A DNA stretch of 55,415 nucleotides. It comes from Fonticella tunisiensis. Its GTDB lineage: Bacteria; Bacillota; Clostridia; Clostridiales; Caloramatoraceae. The notes under the pieces are model-generated. The model searched no databases. It saw only the letters and a list, made by a program, of their open reading frames with translations, and was not told the origin of the DNA. The DNA is taken from contig NZ_SOAZ01000019.1 of NCBI RefSeq assembly GCF_004364155.1, positions 1 through 55,415 of the forward strand, given 5' to 3'. Both the position numbers and the translations under genes were made by a program. Positions within the stretch are counted from its first letter, which is position 1. Every line of letters begins with the position of its first letter. Positions 5,615 to 54,798 of this stretch are shown here, in pieces.

Positions 5615-5654
5615 GGACGGTTAATGACTTGTTATTTTAGGGCATTAGCCGTCC
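5615..5654 (+). terminator. Hairpin of the four-member family (copy 4)
   Basis: GGACGGTTAATG (5615-5626) pairs with CATTAGCCGTCC (5643-5654), 12 bp with one wobble. The 16-nt loop (ACTTGTTATTTTAGGG) differs slightly from the others. It lies 15 bases after the coiled-coil gene; no U-tract follows. Confidence 0.6.
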
Positions 5655-8242: not shown

Positions 8243-9022
8243 ATGAAAAGGAAAAATTACATTATCGCTGTATTAACTCTTTTACTGGCTCTATTCCCTG
8301 TTGTTAATGCTGTGGCAAAAAGCAATCAACCCAAAATCAAAGAAAACAAACAAATCACTGACCTTAATGAACTTTATAATAGGGCAGTAAAAGGGGTAAG
8401 TGACAAACAAGAAAAGCATGCAGAAAAATGGATATTTAAAAATCATACTACGAATGAAATTGTAGAGGTTGACGCCCTATCCACAACACAAATACTTAAA
8501 TCAGTTATAACTAACGACTATGAGGAAATCACTTATGCAACAACAACATTCCTTGCACCGGAAGATACAGTAAATTTCACCGACGGACTTATCAGTAATG
8601 ATTCTACTATGTCAGAGGTTGTTGCATTATCGGAGCCCTATGGTGAAGCAAATAAGTGGGATTCAACTTATGGGGTTAAAGCATATTCGACTAAAGTTTA
8701 TACTGTTATTACATATGCTGGAAAAGAAGCAGTCAAAATGTCTAGAGTTTACGGAGGATGGTACGTAGCTGATACAACAATCAGATTAGAAATGAGACAT
8801 GTTTGGTATGGACAAAATGGAACATCTGCATATGATGGTAGTTATGTAAATGATCAAGTAAGAAATTATTATCCTGCATATGATACGTGGGATTATAGTG
8901 TCGATTCTGGTTGGACACCTATAAAACGCGATGCGTCAATGTCAGTTGGTGTAAACTCTGAAGTAAACTTAGTTCGTGGCAGCTCTGTGTGGTCATTATA
9001 TTTACAAAATTGGATTAGGTAA
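8243..9022 (+). CDS. Secreted protein of unknown function
   Basis: A 259-residue precursor. Residues 1-26 form a signal peptide: Lys/Arg-rich start, the hydrophobic stretch IIAVLTLLLALFPVV, and a probable A-V-A cleavage site. The mature part is rich in Thr, Tyr, Val and Trp, with alternating patterns typical of beta-structure (for example T-K-V-Y-T-V-I-T-Y and S-V-W-S-L-Y-L-Q-N-W near the end) and has no cysteine. GGAGG lies eight bases before the ATG; the open frame extends 28 codons upstream without support. I recognise no family; an extracellular or surface role follows only from the signal peptide. Confidence 0.75.
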   Translation: MKRKNYIIAVLTLLLALFPVVNAVAKSNQPKIKENKQITDLNELYNRAVKGVSDKQEKHAEKWIFKNHTTNEIVEVDALSTTQILKSVITNDYEEITYATTTFLAPEDTVNFTDGLISNDSTMSEVVALSEPYGEANKWDSTYGVKAYSTKVYTVITYAGKEAVKMSRVYGGWYVADTTIRLEMRHVWYGQNGTSAYDGSYVNDQVRNYYPAYDTWDYSVDSGWTPIKRDASMSVGVNSEVNLVRGSSVWSLYLQNWIR

Positions 9023-19032: not shown

Positions 19033-19396
19033 GTTTTAATCAAACCATGTTGGAATTGAAACAATGCAATTATGTTAGAAGTAGGTGGATATCAATACTG
19101 TTTTAATCAAACCATGTTGGAATTGAAACTTGCATAGAAGTTGATAGTTTTATATGACTTGATAACGTTTTAATCAAACCATGTTGGAATTGAAACTTTG
19201 GTTGCATATGTAGTTGTATCTGCTGTAGCAATGTTTTAATCAAACCATGTTGGAATTGAAACTAAATTTATTAAATCTTCATGTCTGTTCCCTGATACGG
19301 TTTTAATCAAACCATGTTGGAATTGAAACTATAAACTCACTAAAGGAAAGAACTGAAGCAAGTGCAGTTTTAATCAAACCATGTTGGAATTGAAAG
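19033..19396 (+). CRISPR. CRISPR array, 6 repeats and 5 spacers
   Basis: Six 30-nt repeats start at 19033, 19100, 19167, 19233, 19300 and 19367. Each begins GTTTTAATCAAACC, continues ATGTTG and ends GAATTGAAAC. The first five are identical; the sixth has G for the final C, as expected at the leader-distal end. Spacers are 37, 37, 36, 37 and 37 nt. The GAAAC end gives the usual 8-nt 5' handle of crRNAs cut by Cas6, so transcription is rightward from the leader. The repeat type is one shared by clostridial type I-B and III-A loci. The nearest effector genes are the csm genes at 24982-31300. No spacer matches elsewhere in the window were noticed. Confidence 0.97.
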
Positions 19397-21760: not shown

Positions 21761-21856
21761 GTTTTAATCAAACCATGTTGGAATTGAAATTGTAGGGGCG
21801 AACACTGTTCGCCCCTACGGGGAAAGGTTTTTATCATACCATATTGGATTTAACCC
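21761..21856 (+). CRISPR. CRISPR relic: two degenerate repeats around a 36-nt REP-containing interval
   Basis: The first element (21761-21790) matches the main array repeat at 29 of 30 bases, with T for the last C. The second (21827-21856) matches at about 23 of 30 (starts GTTTTTATCATACCATATTGG). The 36 bases between them equal the spacer length of the main array. Within them 21792-21818 is a perfect copy of the REP palindrome found at 51366-51392 and 51707-51733: arms GTAGGGGCGAA and TTCGCCCCTAC around CACTG. Orientation equals the main array. It may be a deleted array end that kept one spacer taken from a genomic REP, or a REP inserted into a relic. Confidence 0.7.
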
Positions 21857-47198: not shown

Positions 47199-48707
47199 AT
47201 GGAGAACAAACTAACCTTATCCCAGCTTGAAAGCTTTCTCTGGGGAGCGGCTGATATATTAAGGGGCAACATGGATGCTTCTGAGTATAAGAACTACATA
47301 TTCGGAATGCTCTTTTTAAAGAGGGCAAGCGATGTTTTTGATGAGGAAATAGAAAATATTATAAAGAGGGAAATGGAACTTGGAGCCTCGGAGGAGGAAG
47401 CAAGGGAGATCGCTGAGGACAGGGATGAGCATGATATATATGTGCCTGAAAGGGCCAGGTGGAAGAATATAAAGGATTTGAAGCACGATATAGGACCGGA
47501 AATTAACAAGGCCTTTGAGGAGCTTGAACATGAAAATCCAATACTCGAAGGAGTTTTGACAGCGGTTGATTTTAATGATAAGGACAGGCTGCCTGACAAT
47601 AAGCTAAGGTCCCTTATACTGCATTTTGATACATACAGGCTTAGAAATTCTGACTTTGAAAAGACAGATATATTGGGTGCCGCCTATGAGTACCTTATAA
47701 AGCAGTTTGCCGATAGTTCGGGAAAGAAGGCAGGGGAGTTCTATACACCTGCCGAGGTTGTCAGGCTAATTGTAAACCTTGTTAAGCCGGAGGAAGGAAT
47801 GCAGGTTTATGACCCTACTGTTGGCTCTGGTGGTATGCTTGTTCAAACAATAAGGTACATAGAGGAGCATGGTGGAAACCCAAACAACGTTTCATTATAT
47901 GGACAGGAAATAAACTTAAGCACCTGGGCTATTTGCAAGATGAACATGATACTCCATGGTGTCACAGGGGCTAAGATTTATAAGGGTGATACCATAAGGG
48001 CTCCCCAAAATATAGAAAATGGAAGGCTTATGCAGTTTGACAGGGTTATTGCAAATCCTCCATTCAGCTTGAAGAACTGGGGAAGGGAAGACGTTGAGAA
48101 TGATGGATTTAACAGGTTTACATATGGACTTCCTCCTGCAAGCTATGGGGATTTAGCATTTGTTCAGCACATGATTGCCTCATTAAAACTTACTGGAAAG
48201 ATGGCAACGGTAGTTCCCCATGGAGTTCTCTTTAGAGCCGGAGCAGAGGGAAAGATAAGGGAAGGCATGATAAAGGATGATATTATAGAGGCTGTTATAG
48301 GCCTGCCTTCAAAGCTTTTCTATAACACAGGCATCCCTGCAGCAATACTTGTGATTAATAAGAACAAGGAGACAAAGAGAAGGGGAAAGGTACTATTTAT
48401 AGACGCGAGCAGGGAATACCAGGAAGGAAAGAACCAGAACGTTTTAAGGAATGAGGATATAGAGAAAATAGTTAAAGCCTTTGATGGTTTTGAGGATATG
48501 GAGAAGTATGCAAAGGTTGTTACAAATGAAGAAATTAATAAGAACGAGTATAATCTGAACATTTCAAGGTATGTTGATGTAAGCGAGGAGGAAGAGTTGA
48601 TTGATATAGAGGAAGTTATTCAAAAGCTCGACGAACTTGAAGAGGAAAGAAAAGCAATAGATAAGAAGCTAAATGGATTTTTAGTTGAGCTTGGATTTAG
48701 GGATTAG
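47199..48707 (+). CDS. hsdM: Type I restriction-modification methylase subunit HsdM
   Basis: A 502-residue N6-adenine methylase of the HsdM family. The N-terminal helical domain ([14 protein letters not shown] and [13 protein letters not shown]) is followed by [10 protein letters not shown] near residue 178, motif [10 protein letters not shown] near residue 204 and motif IV A-N-P-P-F-S near residue 285. A coiled-coil end contacts HsdS. It works as M2S to methylate and with HsdR to restrict. The hsdS gene follows after 15 bases. Confidence 0.96.
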
Positions 48708-48722
48708 ACAGGTGGTGATAGC

Positions 48723-49964
48723 GTGAAGAAGGTTAGAGAAGGATATAAGATGACGGAGATTGGGGAGATACCTGAGGAGTGGTCAATTGTAAAACTTGGT
48801 AGTGTAATAAAAAGTTGTTCAAATGGTTTAAGTGATAAGCAAAATCGAGAAGGTAAAGGTGTTAGAGTCACGAGAATTGAGACAATATCAAACGGGATAA
48901 TTGATATTAATAAAGTTGGATATGTTGAAACTGAAAGGGATCTAACTGATTATAAATTACATACAGGGGATATATTGTTTAGTAATATAAATAGTGTTGA
49001 GCATATTGGAAAGGTAGCATATGTTGATAAAGACTATAACTTATATCATGGAATGAATTTACTAAGGATTAGATCGGATAAAGATAAAATATATGACAAA
49101 TATTTGTATTTCTTATTATGCTCATATAATGCCAGGAAATATTTTAGAGATAATTGTAAGAAAGCTGTAAATCAAGCAAGTTTAAATCAGGAGGATTTAA
49201 AAAGATTTGTTTTTGCTCTTCCTTCATTTACGGAGCAAAAAAAGATTGCTCAAATCCTTTCCACCGTCGATGAATTAATAGAAAAAACTGATGAAATAAT
49301 AGAAAAAACAAAGGAACTTAAAAAGGGATTAATGCAAAAACTTCTTACAAAGGGTATAGGGCACAGCAAATTTAAGATGACTGAAATAGGGGAGATACCT
49401 GAGGATTGGGAAGTTAGAAGATTAGATGAATTAGCAGATGTAATTATGGGGCAATCACCTGATTCAAGTACCTATAACGATGTAGGGGAAGGAATCCCAT
49501 TTTTCCAAGGAAAAGCTGACTTTGGAACAACATATCCAACAGTGAGAAAATGGTGCATTCAACCTACTAAAATTTCAGAACCTCTTGATATATTGTTGTC
49601 AGTTAGGGCACCTGTTGGAGATGTAAATATAAATAATGTAAAGGCTTGTATCGGCAGAGGGTTAGCAGCGATTAGAGCAAAAAGAGAGAATGATTTTAAG
49701 TTCATTTATTATGCTCTTCAACAGTATAAAGACATATTCGATAAAGTATCTCAAGGAAGTACGTTTAGTGCAATTAATAGTGGAGAGCTAAAAGCTTTAA
49801 AGTTAGCCAGTCCTAACAAAAACGAACAACGCCAAATTGCCTCAATCCTCTCTGCTGTAGACGAAAAAATCGAAGCCGAAGAAAAACGCAAAGAGCAGCT
49901 ATTACAGCTTAAAAAAGGCCTTATGCAGCAGCTTTTAACAGGAAGGGTTAGGGTAAAGGTGTAA
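48723..49964 (+). CDS. hsdS: Type I restriction-modification specificity subunit HsdS
   Basis: A 413-residue DNA-recognition subunit with two target recognition domains (about residues 15-180 and 225-390), each followed by a conserved coiled spacer helix (T-V-D-E-L-I-E-K-T near 182 and A-V-D-E-K-I-E-A-E near 384). The two halves share the lead-in M-T-E-I-G-E-I-P-E-x-W and the L-K-K-G-L-M-Q-x-L-L-T ending, the usual internal repeat that lets halves swap. The start is GTG at 48723 after GGTGGTGAT. The operon is interrupted here: hsdR lies 1.9 kb on, beyond REP arrays and a transposase. Confidence 0.95.
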   Translation: MKKVREGYKMTEIGEIPEEWSIVKLGSVIKSCSNGLSDKQNREGKGVRVTRIETISNGIIDINKVGYVETERDLTDYKLHTGDILFSNINSVEHIGKVAYVDKDYNLYHGMNLLRIRSDKDKIYDKYLYFLLCSYNARKYFRDNCKKAVNQASLNQEDLKRFVFALPSFTEQKKIAQILSTVDELIEKTDEIIEKTKELKKGLMQKLLTKGIGHSKFKMTEIGEIPEDWEVRRLDELADVIMGQSPDSSTYNDVGEGIPFFQGKADFGTTYPTVRKWCIQPTKISEPLDILLSVRAPVGDVNINNVKACIGRGLAAIRAKRENDFKFIYYALQQYKDIFDKVSQGSTFSAINSGELKALKLASPNKNEQRQIASILSAVDEKIEAEEKRKEQLLQLKKGLMQQLLTGRVRVKV

Positions 49965-49977
49965 TGATTCTTTATAC

Positions 49978-50204
49978 GGGCGAACACTGTTCGCCCCTAT
50001 ATAACAATGTAATTTATATGGCTGGAATGAATTGTTGATTAACATGGGCGAACGATGTTCGCCCCTACAAAATAATGTAATTTTATAGATGGCACGAATT
50101 GTTGAATGAACATGGGCGAAGGATGTTCGCCCCTACAAAACAATGTAATTTTTATAGATGGGATGCATTGTTGAATGAACATGGGTGAAAGATGTTCGCC
50201 CCTA
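49978..50204 (+). repeat. Tandem array of four REP palindromes (~68-bp period)
   Basis: Palindromes of the type GGGCGAAC-x-x-TGTTCGCCCCTA start at 49978, 50046, 50114 and 50183, giving periods of 68, 68 and 69. The spacer sequences are also repeated (ACAA-A-AATGTAATTT, then ATTGTTGA and AACAT). The array fills the gap between hsdS and the transposase gene. Loop bases vary (CACTG, CGATG, GGATG, AGATG) while the TTCGCCCC arm is constant. Confidence 0.9.
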
Positions 50205-50273
50205 CTGTACCAATGATGGGGTGAATTATAGAATAAAAATTTTAATTACGGTAAACAATCTGGTGGTGATGTG

Positions 50274-50768
50274 ATGGATTATCCGAAAAGAAAATCAATT
50301 CGTTTAAAGGGTTATGATTATAGTCAAAATGGATATTATTTTATTACAATATGTGTTCAAAACATGAAAAATATTTTATGTAGGGGCGAACACTGTTCGC
50401 CAGAAAATAACCACCAATTTGAGTTATCAGATATAGGAATATTAGTGGATACTGCAATTAGAAATATACCTAAATATTATGCGAATGTTGAAATTGAAAA
50501 GTACGTTATTATGCCAAACCATCTGCATATGATTCTTGTATTGCAGAGTAATGAAAGCGGGCGAACGATGTTCGACCCTACAGCACCGACAATAGGGCGA
50601 ATCATTAAACAAATGAAGGGATACATAGCAAAGCAAATAGGCTATTCAATATGGCAGAAATCCTATTACGACCATATTATACGTAATGAGTCAGAATATC
50701 AAAAGATTTGGCAATATATTGACACCAACCCATTAAAATGGGAGTCGGATAAATATTATAATAGGTAA
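50274..50768 (+). CDS. REP-associated tyrosine transposase (RAYT, Y1 HUH family)
   Basis: A 164-residue single-strand DNA transposase-like protein. It opens with R-K-S-I-R-L-K-G-Y-D-Y and N-G-Y-Y-F-I-T-I-C-V-Q, has the HUH metal motif M-P-N-H-L-H at residues 80-85, the I-G-R-I-I-K-Q-M-K-G-Y helix near residue 107, and a catalytic-Tyr candidate in W-Q-K-S-Y-Y-D-H (Tyr131/132), all RAYT hallmarks. Two REP palindromes lie within the coding sequence and are translated in frame as C-R-G-E-H-C-S-P (residues 36-43) and S-G-R-T-M-F-D-P-T (95-103), at places where relatives have other residues. ATG 50274 follows GGTGGTG. RAYTs are thought to move or maintain REPs; activity of this variant is uncertain. 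Confidence 0.9.
   Translation: MDYPKRKSIRLKGYDYSQNGYYFITICVQNMKNILCRGEHCSPENNHQFELSDIGILVDTAIRNIPKYYANVEIEKYVIMPNHLHMILVLQSNESGRTMFDPTAPTIGRIIKQMKGYIAKQIGYSIWQKSYYDHIIRNESEYQKIWQYIDTNPLKWESDKYYNR
50380..50401 (+). repeat. REP palindrome inside the RAYT gene, first
   Basis: GTAGGGGCGAA then CACTGTTCGCC; identical to the array consensus over 22 bases but lacking the last five bases of the right arm. It stays in frame. Confidence 0.85.
50557..50581 (+). repeat. REP palindrome inside the RAYT gene, second
   Basis: GCGGGCGAACGATG then TTCGACCCTAC; a slightly diverged REP with the CGATG loop of the 50046 copy. It is in frame and directly precedes the codons for T-I-G-R-I-I-K-Q-M-K. Confidence 0.8.
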
Positions 50769-50854
50769 TCCTATCATAATGGGCCCTAAATAGGAAAACA
50801 GTCTATGCGGTGACGTATGTCACCCGAAGTGTATGTACAAACGATGTTTAATGT

Positions 50855-51815
50855 GTAGGGGCGAACACTGTTCGCCCCAACGGTGGGATGGGTTATTAAG
50901 CAAATGAAAGAACACGTAAACATGAAAACAATCCATGTAGTGGCGAATATTATTTGCCGCAACAGGCCTAACGATTGGGGATAATTAAACAAACAGGAGG
51001 ATACGCCGATATGAAAAGAATCTATGTAGAGGCGAACATTGTTCGCCCCTACGGTGGGATGGGTTATTAAGCAAATGAAAGAACACGTAAACATGAAAAC
51101 AATCTATGCAGGGGTGAACACTGTTCGCCGCAACAGGCCAAACGATGAGGATAATTAAACAAACAGGAGGATACGCCGATATGAAAAGAATCTATGTAGA
51201 GGCGAAGACTGCTCGCCCCTACGGTGGGATGGATTAATAAACAAATGAAAAGACATGTAAACATGAAAACAATCCATGTAGTGGCGAATATTATTTGCCG
51301 CAACAGGCCCAACGATGGGGATAATTAAACAAACAGGAGGATACGCCGATATGAAAAGAATCTATGTAGGGGCGAACACTGTTCGCCCCTACGGTGGGAT
51401 GGGTTATTAAGCAAATGAAAGAACACGTAAACATGAAAACAATCTATGCAGGGGTGAACACTGTTCGCCGCAACAGGCCAAACGATGAGGATAATTAAAC
51501 AAACAGGAGGATACGCCGATATGAAAAGAATCTATGTAGAGGCGAAGACTGCTCGCCCCTACGGTGGGATGGATTAATAAACAAATGAAAAGACATGTAA
51601 ACATGAAAACAATCCATATAGTGGCGAATATTATTTGCCGCAACAGGCCTAACGATTGGGGATAATTAAACAAACAGGAGGATACGCCGATATGAAAACA
51701 ATCTATGTAGGGGCGAACACTGTTCGCCCCTACGGTGGGATGGATTAATAAGCAAATGAAAAGACATGTGAACATGAAAAGAATCTATGTAGGGGCGAAC
51801 ATTGTTCGCCGCAAC
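50855..51815 (+). repeat. Tandem REP array, 170-bp units with 340-bp higher-order period
   Basis: Twelve REP-like palindromes lie about 82-88 bases apart, starting near 50855, 50938, 51026, 51108, 51196, 51278, 51366, 51448, 51536, 51618, 51707 and 51788. A landmark ATGAAAAGAATCTATGTAG recurs at 51011, 51181, 51351 and 51521 (period 170). By eye, 51011-51350 and 51351-51690 differ at only about five positions, so the latest event was a 340-bp duplication. Palindromes alternate between GTAGGGGCGAA/TTCGCCCCTAC and a form ending CGCCGCAAC. Inter-REP pieces resemble RAYT gene text (see findings). No gene is coded here; leftward frames across it are by-products of the repeat. Confidence 0.92.
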
Positions 51816-51831
51816 AATGGGGGTGGAACTG

Positions 51832-54798
51832 TTGAGCATCTGGACAGAGGAAAGCGAAGTAGAGCTTCCTGCCATTAAGAGGTTAAAGTGGCTTGGGTAC
51901 ACTTATGTTGAGCCTGAGGTTCTCATGGAGGAAAGGGAATCCTTAAAGGAAGTTATACTCGTTAAAAGGCTTAGGGAAGCGATAAAAAGAATAAATCCGT
52001 GGATAGATGATGTTAACTTGGATAAGGCAGTCAGAAGGTTAACCCATGTTAGTGCAGTTGGGCTTATGGAAGGTAATAGGGACGTCTATGAAATGCTTAC
52101 CTCCCATATATCCCTTGAGCAGGACTTGGGAACGGGTAAAAAGGGACAGACTGTAAAGTTTATTGATTATGAAAATATAGATAACAATGAATTTATAGTA
52201 ACCCGCCAATATAAGGTGCAGGGAGTTAAAGAAACTATTATTCCCGACATAGTTGTGTTTATAAATGGCCTTCCAATCGGAGTTATAGAGTGCAAGGCCG
52301 AAAGCAGGCCAAATGCCATGGAGGAGGGGATAAAACAGCTTTTAAAATATACGAATATGAGAAAGCCCGAGGAAAATGAAGGCGCTGAAAAGCTCTTTTA
52401 TACCAATCAGGTTCTTGTTTCAACCTTTGGTGGAGGAGCAAAGTTTGGAACGGTGGGTGCAGGGTATGACCACTATCTTGAGTGGAAGGACCCATATCCA
52501 CTGAGCATAAAGGACTTGGGAAAGCATAAGATACAGGATATACTTCTTGCAGGAATATTTAAAAAGGAGAACATTCTTGACCTTATTCAAAACTTTATAG
52601 TCTATGAATCTGTAAATGGAAAGCTCATTAAAAAGCTTGCAAGATATCAGCAGTTTAGGGCAGTAAACAGGACACTCGAAAGACTTATTAATGCTAAAAA
52701 CTCAAAGGAGAGAAGCGGTGTTATCTGGCATACACAGGGTTCAGGCAAGTCCCTTACAATGGTGTATCTCTGTGGAAAGATAAGAAGGATTCCTGAGGTT
52801 AAGGCATCAACAATACTCATCATAACCGACAGGGTTGACCTTGATGAGCAGATAACAAATACATTTAGAAAGACCTCAGGGGATGAGGTTATTCATATAG
52901 GAAGCAGAAGGCAGCTAAGGGAGCTATTAACTAAGGATAAAAGCGTTGTTATTATGTCAACTATACATAAATTCCTCGGAGTTGATGAAGATGTTGAGTA
53001 TCCTGTGCTTTCTGAGAGTGAAAACATAATAGTAATGGTTGATGAGGCCCATAGAACCCAATACAGCGACCTTGCAAGAAATATGAGAACTGCCCTTCCT
53101 AATGCAGCATACCTTGGCTTTACAGGAACTCCAATATCCAAGATAGACAAAAACACAAGAAGAACCTTTGGAGATTATATAGACAAGTATCCGTTTAATG
53201 CAGCAATTAAGGATGGTGCGACTGTTCCTATTTTATACGAGGGAAGAAAACCAGAACTTATGGTTGAGGGTGCAAACCTTGAGGAGCTTTTTGACAGGGT
53301 GTTCTACAATAAAACACCTGAGGAAAAGGCGGAGATTAAGAAAAGATATGTTAATGCAACATATATTGCCGAATCTCCCTCAAGAATTAAAGCAATATGC
53401 CTTGATTTAATTAAGCACTTTGAAGAGAGGGTAAAGCCAAACGGATACAAGGCAATGGTAGTTGCAAGCTCACGCCTTGCTGCGGTAAGATACCTTGAAA
53501 CCTTAAGGGAGCTTAACGGACCTGAGGCAGAGATAATCATATCAGGTCAGCAAAACGATGAGGCCGATATTGCTAAATACGTTTATGATAAGGACAAGCA
53601 AAAGGATATAATAAACAGGTTTAAGAATGATAAAGATAACTTATCAATACTTGTTGTAAACAACATGCTCCTAACTGGATTTGATGCTCCAGTTGTTCAG
53701 GTTATGTACCTTGACAGGTCCCTTAAGGAGCACAACCTCCTTCAGGCAATTGCAAGGGTTAATAGAAAGTATAAGGACAAGCAGGCTGGAATTATCGTAG
53801 ATTACTTTGGAGTTTCAAAGCATCTTCACCAGGCCCTTGAAATATTTTCAGATGAGGATATAGAGGGAGCATTAAAGCCTGTTTCGGATATACTTCCGTA
53901 CCTTGACAATGCAGGAAGGGAAGCTGTGAAATATTTTAGAAATGTTGATAGAAATGACCTTGAGGAATGTATATATGTCCTGAAGGATAAGAATATAAGG
54001 GATGAGTTCAATGCAGCCTTTAAGGAGTTTGCAAGGTACTATGATATATTAATGCCGGACCCACTTGTAAATAAATATAAGGCTGACTTTAAATTCCTAA
54101 GCCTTGTATATGCTGCGGCCAAAAACAGATACAGGGACGATTTTATGAACCTTGAGGGCTGTGGAGAAAAGGTAAGAAAGCTTATAGAGGAGCATATAAG
54201 AAGCTCAGGTATAAGCACAGTAATAAAGCCCATTAGTATAATTGACAAGGGCTTTGATGCACATGTAAAGGGACTTACAAGCAAGAAGGCACAGGCCTCG
54301 GAAATAGAGCATGCTATAAGGCACTACATTTCAGTAAACATAGATAAGGACCCGGTTTATTATAAAACCCTCCTTGAAAGGCTTGAGGAGATAATAAGGA
54401 AGTATGACGAAAGCTGGGAACAGCTTGCAATGGAGCTTGAAAAGCTTAGGGATGATATTAAAACAGGCCACAGGGATGAGGCGGAGGATAAGGGGCTTAG
54501 CGAAGTTGAGTATGCCTTCTACGGGCTTCTTAAAAAGTTTGAGAGGGATGAGGTTTTTGAGGACATGGTGGCAGAGAAGGGGGAAGAGTATGGAGATGTT
54601 ACAGTATATAGGGCAAAGGAAGTTGTAAAAAAGGTGAAAAAATGTGCTGTAGTTGACTGGACGAAGCGAGATGATGCCCAGAAGGATATGAAGAAGGAAC
54701 TTAAGGGGCTTTTAAGATCCTTTGGCTACAGTTTAAGAGAAGCAAATGAAATAACAGCTGAAATAGTAGAACTTGCAAAAGTACACTTTGGAAGGTAG
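51832..54798 (+). CDS. hsdR: Type I restriction enzyme subunit HsdR
   Basis: A 988-residue motor and nuclease subunit. The N-terminal nuclease shows P-D-I-V-V-F-I-N-G-L-P-I and V-I-E-C-K-A near residues 142-160 (PD-ExK). Helicase motifs are T-Q-G-S-G-K-S-L near residue 303, V-D-E-A-H-R-T-Q near residue 403, L-G-F-T-G-T-P near residue 425 and the A-R-V-N-R motif VI near residue 643. I choose TTG 51832 (S-I-W-T-E-E-S-E-V-E-L-P-A-I follows), five bases after GGGGGTGG; ATG 51817 and TTG 51802 lie in or beside the last REP. All motifs are intact. It is separated from hsdM-hsdS by 1.9 kb of REP sequence and RAYT. Confidence 0.93.
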   Translation: MSIWTEESEVELPAIKRLKWLGYTYVEPEVLMEERESLKEVILVKRLREAIKRINPWIDDVNLDKAVRRLTHVSAVGLMEGNRDVYEMLTSHISLEQDLGTGKKGQTVKFIDYENIDNNEFIVTRQYKVQGVKETIIPDIVVFINGLPIGVIECKAESRPNAMEEGIKQLLKYTNMRKPEENEGAEKLFYTNQVLVSTFGGGAKFGTVGAGYDHYLEWKDPYPLSIKDLGKHKIQDILLAGIFKKENILDLIQNFIVYESVNGKLIKKLARYQQFRAVNRTLERLINAKNSKERSGVIWHTQGSGKSLTMVYLCGKIRRIPEVKASTILIITDRVDLDEQITNTFRKTSGDEVIHIGSRRQLRELLTKDKSVVIMSTIHKFLGVDEDVEYPVLSESENIIVMVDEAHRTQYSDLARNMRTALPNAAYLGFTGTPISKIDKNTRRTFGDYIDKYPFNAAIKDGATVPILYEGRKPELMVEGANLEELFDRVFYNKTPEEKAEIKKRYVNATYIAESPSRIKAICLDLIKHFEERVKPNGYKAMVVASSRLAAVRYLETLRELNGPEAEIIISGQQNDEADIAKYVYDKDKQKDIINRFKNDKDNLSILVVNNMLLTGFDAPVVQVMYLDRSLKEHNLLQAIARVNRKYKDKQAGIIVDYFGVSKHLHQALEIFSDEDIEGALKPVSDILPYLDNAGREAVKYFRNVDRNDLEECIYVLKDKNIRDEFNAAFKEFARYYDILMPDPLVNKYKADFKFLSLVYAAAKNRYRDDFMNLEGCGEKVRKLIEEHIRSSGISTVIKPISIIDKGFDAHVKGLTSKKAQASEIEHAIRHYISVNIDKDPVYYKTLLERLEEIIRKYDESWEQLAMELEKLRDDIKTGHRDEAEDKGLSEVEYAFYGLLKKFERDEVFEDMVAEKGEEYGDVTVYRAKEVVKKVKKCAVVDWTKRDDAQKDMKKELKGLLRSFGYSLREANEITAEIVELAKVHFGR

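Follow-up and report, generated by a model that had tools for sequence, protein, structure and literature searches.

A 55,415-nucleotide stretch of the Fonticella tunisiensis genome (contig NZ_SOAZ01000019.1, positions 1 to 55,415), hereafter the window, carries at 50854-51816 on the plus strand a tandem array of 12 repetitive extragenic palindromic (REP) elements, downstream of a gene for a REP-associated tyrosine transposase (RAYT; 50271-50768, plus strand, 165 aa). The spacers of this array resemble pieces of the RAYT gene that are distant within the gene and joined in the array across a single REP. The most probable account, to which we give a probability of about 0.72, is that the array is a satellite of RAYT gene debris, formed by collapse of the gene between two REPs that it contains, duplication of the resulting junction and higher-order amplification.

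The two in-gene REPs are in frame and inverted with respect to each other. REP1 (50380-50401) bears a GTAG tag at its 5' side, and REP2 (50559-50581), an imperfect palindrome, bears a CTAC tag at its 3' side. The segment located before REP1 (pre-REP1, 50361-50379) probably gave rise to the 3' part of each array spacer, and the segment following REP2 (post-REP2, 50582-50627) is the source of the 5' part; both segments and both REPs lie on the plus strand. Tandem Repeats Finder (TRF) reported the array over 50854-51816 at periods of 170 and 340 bp, and over 51011-51810 at a period of 82 bp. Twelve REP cores were located, separated by alternating spacers of two types: half-unit A measures 82 bp and half-unit B 88 bp, the dimer 170 bp and the higher-order repeat 340 bp. 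In a representative A spacer (51053-51107, plus strand) a post-REP2 piece leads into a pre-REP1 piece; a B spacer (51306-51365, plus strand) has the 5' part most similar to the present RAYT gene. The sequences ahead of the first REP (50859) and behind the last one (51793) do not belong to the repeat unit. Complete dimers 340 bp apart are identical at 168 and 167 of 170 positions, compared with 149 to 159 of 170 or 171 for the other pairs, from which we deduced that A and B diverged long ago and that the higher-order amplification came later and is recent. In one frame half-unit A reads GRTLFAPTVGWVIKQMKEHVNMKTIYVGANTV, to be compared with GRTMFDPTAPTIGRIIKQMKGYIAKQIGY for the RAYT gene after REP2. 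The initial annotation had described every half-unit by one common pattern; this applies to A, which reads AACATGAAAA, and not to B, which reads GATATGAAAA instead. The REPs preceding A spacers are mostly doubly tagged and those preceding B spacers have the left tag only, the orientation of the array REPs being ambiguous as to the alternation that marks REPIN or BIME arrays. A hybrid REP at 51366-51392 (plus strand) carries both tags (GTAG...CTAC), with a REP1-like left side and a REP2-like right side. Such hybrid tags, GTAG from REP1 and CTAC from REP2, fit the collapse model.

The claim is positional: array sequence following a REP should match post-REP2 and array sequence preceding a REP should match pre-REP1. 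For this reason, and because unanchored alignment and a protein profile both gave weak signals (described below), we relied on tests in which sequences were aligned from the REP edge and compared with a null made of window segments outside the locus. For post-REP2, the scores of the five B spacers were reached by 0 to 6 of 53,398 null segments and those of the six A spacers by 140 to 586. When A and B were tested jointly, none of 53,394 null segments attained the observed score (49.5, the best random score being 40.5). For pre-REP1, the scores of the six A 3' ends were reached by 35 to 186 of 53,430 segments, and the joint A and B test by 51 of 53,430, a moderate match. Taken alone, B fits the window gene best (0 of 53,398), and A fits better the post-REP2 segment of other RAYT genes, at loci L130 (50 of 53,398) and L045 (27 of 53,398), with the exception of L040 (31,402). 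Homology of the repeat unit to transposase coding sequence was thus found for the post-REP2 part and is less certain for the pre-REP1 part. As the post-REP2 segment lies in a conserved coding region of the RAYT family (consensus APTISxIIxQxK), the array derives from a RAYT gene and not the reverse. The tandem REP array with RAYT-like spacers proposed by the initial annotation is consequently borne out by the TRF span, the 12 REPs and the joint post-REP2 test. Its further proposal, that the unit is the RAYT gene deprived of the REP1-REP2 interval and then amplified, stands as regards RAYT sequence joined across a single REP; the tandem step is one that we infer.

These tests also bear on the view that the array is an ordinary REP cluster, with spacers resembling RAYT by chance or REPs inserted into unrelated sequence. 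The literature contains REP clusters whose flanking DNA is repeated in tandem (PMC3733652, PMC3116915), and a neighbouring array of 68-bp period shows RAYT similarity only behind its last REP. The joint post-REP2 result, the agreement of position and orientation of the RAYT match with the REP edge and the parallel cases of L163, L196 and L221 described below nevertheless make this view very unlikely. A collinear duplication, in which repetition would have affected REP2 together with the ~55 nt of RAYT coding sequence behind it, and pre-REP1 would have made no contribution, is a better contender that we still consider improbable. It would account for the gap-free alignment of A, along its full length, with the post-REP2 segment of L130, and for the collinear continuation of the best local alignments of A and B to the window gene. 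For the final 18 nt of A, however, the fit to the collinear continuation hardly exceeds chance, if at all (3,210, 10,787 and 1,992 of 53,438 null segments for the window gene, L130 and L040, respectively), while the 3' ends of A fit pre-REP1 at the 35 to 186 of 53,430 given above. Moreover, the left side of the array REPs has GTAG, like REP1 and unlike REP2, a point tempered by the presence of GTAG in stand-alone REPs too.

Several observations weigh against an origin of the array by collapse of the RAYT gene. In local alignments of REP-stripped spacers with the REP-masked gene, the observed score was reached by 13 of 2000 dinucleotide shuffles for A and 36 of 2000 for B, a result only modestly above the shuffles; some unrelated window segments scored equally high. 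In a search with a profile built from 65 RAYT relatives, two array frames came right behind the gene, with E-values no better than 0.04 and 0.1. For pre-REP1, A reaches significance and B does not: the score of the five B 3' ends was equalled by 4,417 of 53,430 null segments. With 34-nt flanks, pre-REP1 gave p=0.0035 for three copies, against a small local null in which the array itself is included, and failed the p<0.003 threshold in a wider screen of 168 loci. Other REPs also run on as ...CTACGG (L128, window position 21791), so that the bases with which A begins behind the REP carry little weight. The closest RAYT relative (L130, 72%, whose 10-kb surroundings are locus L159) has neither array nor RAYT fragment, and a version of the window unit in 2 or 3 copies was found in no genome. 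Finally, the array copy number depends on a 64-contig assembly and could be wrong.

The collapse itself was observed at another locus, L163 of genome G391, which provides the one-unit form that the initial annotation had recommended to look for in relatives. There, RAYT residues 2-36 are followed by a single GTAG...CTAC hybrid REP, GTAGGGGACGATGAAGGCATCGTCCCCTAC, and then by residues 104-164, the REP1-to-REP2 interval being lost. Aligned with the intact gene of L139, L163 shows a gap of 155 nt spanning the REP1 tag to REP2. It is a pseudogene, with its two parts in different frames and a stop in the second. The distance between N- and C-terminal parts is 26 nt, against a median of 193 nt over 112 pairs, among which L163 was entered three times under different locus ids (L181 and L182 repeat it). 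L112 and L114 also have short distances, with no junction REP seen. No further deletion with a hybrid REP was found in loci from the families of G330 (22 genomes) and G391 (6 genomes), and an internally deleted RAYT source was seen in L163 and not at the window locus.

RAYT pieces were also found at REPs elsewhere. L049 carries, downstream of the gene, a copy of REP2 and post-REP2 (84% over 57 nt including the REP). L059, from a genome of the same family as the window's, has pre-REP2 pieces and three copies of the RAYT tail, of which those at 5653 (97%) and 4741 (81%) lie right behind REPs and the one at 8947 (86%) has no REP. By eye, the RAYT tail and REP pair of L055 are present in a second copy. 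In L069, a remnant of the 3' half of RAYT (92%) starts from the REP2 loop and adjoins a 66-bp REP array, and a 51-bp repeat lies within the gene's own REP2 loop. L160 has the C-terminal half of RAYT behind a REP, L196 a 98-nt RAYT piece starting from the REP1 right arm (93%) and L221 a piece of pre-REP1 plus REP1 (53 nt, 96%). On the basis of these sequences, in-gene REPs look like recurrent junctions. In L097 (2570-2700 and 4013-4336), the RAYT reading passes through REP2-loop repeats into sequence common to a REP-bearing stretch 1.4 kb away, an apparent REP-mediated fusion. In L130 (genome G330), REPs of the same family occur at 839-856 and 1429-1446: the first is inside the gene that precedes RAYT, apparently in frame, and the second at the end of that gene.

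From these elements the following sequence of events can be proposed. The starting state would be a RAYT gene with two in-frame inverted REPs whose GTAG and CTAC tags point outward, the source copy being either an ancestor of the present gene or a lost tandem sister at the locus. REP1 and REP2 would recombine or slip, with a loss of ~175 bp (measured in the present gene from the start of REP1 to that of REP2), and a single hybrid REP with both tags would remain between pre-REP1 and post-REP2 codons. This stretch, pre-REP1 and post-REP2 included, would then be doubled head to tail, so that post-REP2 codons lead into pre-REP1 codons; by eye, the junction of the duplication is in keeping with a 3-nt microhomology, AAC. 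The resulting 82-88 bp unit would diverge into A and B, and the A+B dimer, followed by the 340-bp double dimer, would be multiplied, either by unequal recombination or by slippage of replication at the REP hairpins. The similarity of both parts to the gene, the hybrid REP tags and the higher-order structure are observed at the window locus, and the REP1-by-REP2 deletion at L163; the order of the steps, slippage as the motor, the tandem birth and a mainly neutral or selfish by-product status are inferred. Promoter-like and terminator-like sites were not above shuffles, and none lay within the array. We expect the array to have no essential function, and its 12 hairpins just before hsdR could influence hsdR expression. 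In the B half-units (e.g. 51335-51353), AGGAGG stands 10 nt ahead of an ATG, and short repeated frames (MKRIYVGANTV...) could be translated.

The same deletion could have been driven by the transposase, which would have cut and joined its own in-gene REP pair in the manner of a REPIN (REP doublet forming hairpin), the product being re-copied into a tandem array. TnpAREP enzymes cut single-stranded REP DNA at CT or CA, GTAG playing a part in the choice of site (PMC8266576), and at least 36 of 91 RAYT genes contain an inverted, outward-tagged palindrome pair. Against this, L163 retains a complete hybrid REP, for which plain recombination or slippage accounts, and we hold a RAYT-driven birth of the array to be unlikely.

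The in-gene pairs were surveyed in 91 full-length RAYT genes out of 108 loci. GC-rich palindromes occupy both variable loops in 43 of them, as compared with 0, 1, 4, 0 and 1 in codon-shuffled controls, and 36 possess an in-frame pair with GTAG at the first palindrome and CTAC at the second (e.g. L041, L045, L080 and L153). The latter figure is a lower count: the window gene, with its imperfect REP2, and L040, whose loop was shortened in the survey, have pairs by eye that were not counted. Across the 36 genes, the mean similarity between REP1 and REP2 was 0.86 within the same gene and 0.35 between different genes, and the gene's own REP2 ranked in the top tenth for 31 of 36. This trait may exceed the array in generality and in interest. 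In L078, L049, L069 and L147, in-frame tandem repeats occur within the RAYT REP loops, with similar units outside the gene in L078 and L147. It is conceivable, if rather doubtful, that many RAYT genes contain a built-in REPIN around their HUH-coding part, kept matched by the activity of the enzyme itself, and that RAYT acts on its own gene and sheds REP-bounded coding fragments, of which satellites like this one would be products. If so, REPINs in general might have originated as RAYT genes that lost the sequence between their own REPs.

The generality of the process was assessed on the other REPs of the same genome. A REP search with the GTAG family, in which up to 3 mismatches were allowed, gave 34 plus and 36 minus matches, where the reversed control gave 2 and 1; most palindromes are counted on both strands, and the GTAG tag was seen by eye. 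RAYT-like flanks were sought, in both orientations, at the REPs of eight other loci of this genome and two loci of G010: of 88 tests, 2 gave p<0.01 and none p<0.001. The collapse process therefore looks local, and the "new route to REP expansion" announced by the initial annotation is too wide a claim. The second REP array (49978-50205, plus strand, TRF, 68-bp period), upstream of the RAYT gene, is followed at 50206-50243 (plus strand) by a RAYT post-REP2-like remnant behind its last REP (73% over 64 nt with the REP included; score reached by 23 of 53,398 segments in the anchored test). Two of its four REPs hold the in-gene REP2 centre GAT exactly or nearly, and the first has the ACT of REP1. 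At 21791-21818 of the window (L123), a GTAG...CTAC REP abuts a repeat of about 30 nt, GTTTTAATCAAACCATGTTGGAATTGAAA, also present in an array of 67-bp period at 19033-19263, with the look of clustered regularly interspaced short palindromic repeats. A REP array of 59-bp period stands at two contig ends, G000 C9:28-340 and C36:18997-19250 (L119 and L120), and is probably one array split by the assembly.

Array spacers were searched in 225 genomes of the order, two candidates per genome being scored, and were found in the window's own genome only; identical spacers beside an unrelated RAYT or without one, which would have spoken against the derivation proposed by the initial annotation, were thus not encountered. 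G010 shares with the array the REP cores and about 13 nt, not the spacers. Plasmids gave no DNA match and five distant RAYT matches, and no match was found in viral contigs.

Flanks of in-gene REPs were compared across loci in three ways. An unanchored screen flagged L043 (a second identical RAYT), L044, L059 and the window. An anchored screen over L040-L117 and the window yielded 9 tests with p<0.0035 out of 408, for 1.4 expected: three in L059, three in the window and one each in L044, L049 and L055. It was confined to plus-strand genes of at least 60 bits, with second RAYT copies masked; the window REP2 went unrecognised as a palindrome, and the window post-REP2 side is covered only by the REP-anchored tests described above. 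The wider screen comprised 168 loci, 153 with a near-full RAYT and 54 with outside copies of an in-gene palindrome, and gave 10 tests with p<0.003 out of 834, for 2.5 expected (two each in L059 and L221, one each in L044, L055, L131, L135, L139 and L189). None of these positives lay inside a tandem array; the flank test was too weak for even the window's own array to be recovered, and arrays elsewhere remain compatible with this result. Copies of in-gene REPs inside tandem arrays occur in 6 of 153 loci, five of them distinct (L069, which is the same contig as L230, L070, L141, L184 and the window). In addition to these three screens, BLAST of each RAYT gene against its own surroundings flagged 22 of 153 loci; at the window it flagged the upstream array only and not the main one. 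Sorting by eye, which covered the flagged loci other than L048, L088, L132, L135, L140, L148 and L195, recognised RAYT coding pieces outside the gene in L049, L055, L059, L069 (= L230), L196 and L221. The flags of L053, L070 and L139 look like REP copies that slipped through the mask, and those of L078, L097, L147 and L203 proved on viewing to be loop or spacer repeats. Loci are not independent genomes: L230 matches L069, L041 and L042 come from one isolate, L242 repeats L144, and L059 may not be independent of a G016 contig of equal length.

The window locus is a type I restriction-modification locus according to Pfam, with hsdM (47199-48707), hsdS (48723-49964) and hsdR (51802-54798), all on the plus strand. 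The interval between hsdS and hsdR contains, in order, the 68-bp REP array, the RAYT gene and the REP satellite, and GTAG-REP arrays therefore border the RAYT gene on both sides. The start of hsdR abuts the last REP of the satellite: its listed TTG at 51802 falls within that REP, and ATG 51817 and TTG 51832 are alternative starts by eye. No Rfam match was found in 49900-52000. The TnpAREP-like HUH/Y1 assignment of the RAYT product rests on Pfam, NCBIfam and a PDB relative. It passes the Pfam Y1_Tnp cut-off of 23 (27 bits, E 5.4e-6) and remains under the cut-off of 80 of NCBIfam NF047646 (REP-associated tyrosine transposase, REP_Tyr_transpos; 71.1 bits, E 8.9e-20), which makes it, as judged from that model, a divergent relative and not an equivalog. 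Its sole PDB relative is the TnpArep structure 4ER8 (E 1.9e-4). The HxH motif and the aligned Tyr (H83, H85 and Y148 in alignment numbering) are invariant in 22 of 22 aligned sequences, window included, and by counting Y148 pairs with chain position 115 of 4ER8, which we take to be the catalytic Tyr. The flanking REPs may be RAYT substrates, as candidates only, with cleavage or mobilisation by RAYT putative. In the predicted structure, REP2 encodes residues 96-103, in 10-residue blocks with a mean predicted local distance difference test (pLDDT) score of 61 and 76 (below 50 for residues 97-100), and REP1 encodes residues 36-43, a predicted strand in blocks at 85 and 73, the core blocks scoring 93-97. 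On this model REP2 falls in a linker of poor definition, and REP1 in an edge element that is less certain. The window gene is the only RAYT match of its genome at E 0.001. RAYT matches are sporadic in the order (2 of 225 genomes, E 1e-12) and occur in 63 of 391 genomes of the class sample (E 1e-15).

The window locus and L163 together bear on the birth of REPs and REPINs: they indicate that in-gene REPs can convert a transposase gene into a non-coding, amplifiable REP unit, and suggest how, in a bacterium, the gene of a mobile element may degenerate into satellite DNA. We predict that RAYT genes with matched internal REP pairs are hot spots for REP-bounded deletion and fragment capture.

Many of the ingredients have been published: RAYT-linked REP clusters, tandem REP arrays and intragenic REPs (PMC3116915, PMC8049555, PMC3733652, PMC8266576, PMC2817692, PMC6006769). 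In Pseudomonas fluorescens SBW25, REPIN clusters adjoin three RAYT genes and tandem arrays of 12 REPs exist elsewhere in the genome (PMC3116915); transposase coding sequence as the repeated flank, present in the window array, is unreported in the portion of that paper available to us. GTAG REP families and REPtrons share with our locus the GTAG tags and a predominance of pairs with tags outside (HH dimers), and intragenic REPs as well as REPs overlapping RAYT gene ends have been described among them (PMC3733652, PMC2817692). An inverted REP pair inside the RAYT gene and RAYT-derived spacers go unmentioned in the accessible text of these two papers, supplements aside. More broadly, neither RAYT-derived spacers nor RAYT genes with matched internal REP pairs were found to be described in the literature searched, as far as the text available from it extends and supplements aside. 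Rickettsia palindromic elements are likewise palindromic repeats within coding genes, but are not tied, in the part of the source consulted, to the gene of a mobilising enzyme or to gene collapse (PMC3733652). Tandem satellite DNA that originates from transposon sequence is known as well (PMC12628747, PMC9659126); whereas the satellites described there are eukaryotic, here the source is the HUH transposase gene of a bacterium, and in-gene REPs stand at the junctions. Set beside the known REP clusters and arrays and the known eukaryotic transposon-derived satellites, and within the limits of the texts cited, what appears new is a REP satellite probably derived from a transposase gene in a bacterium.
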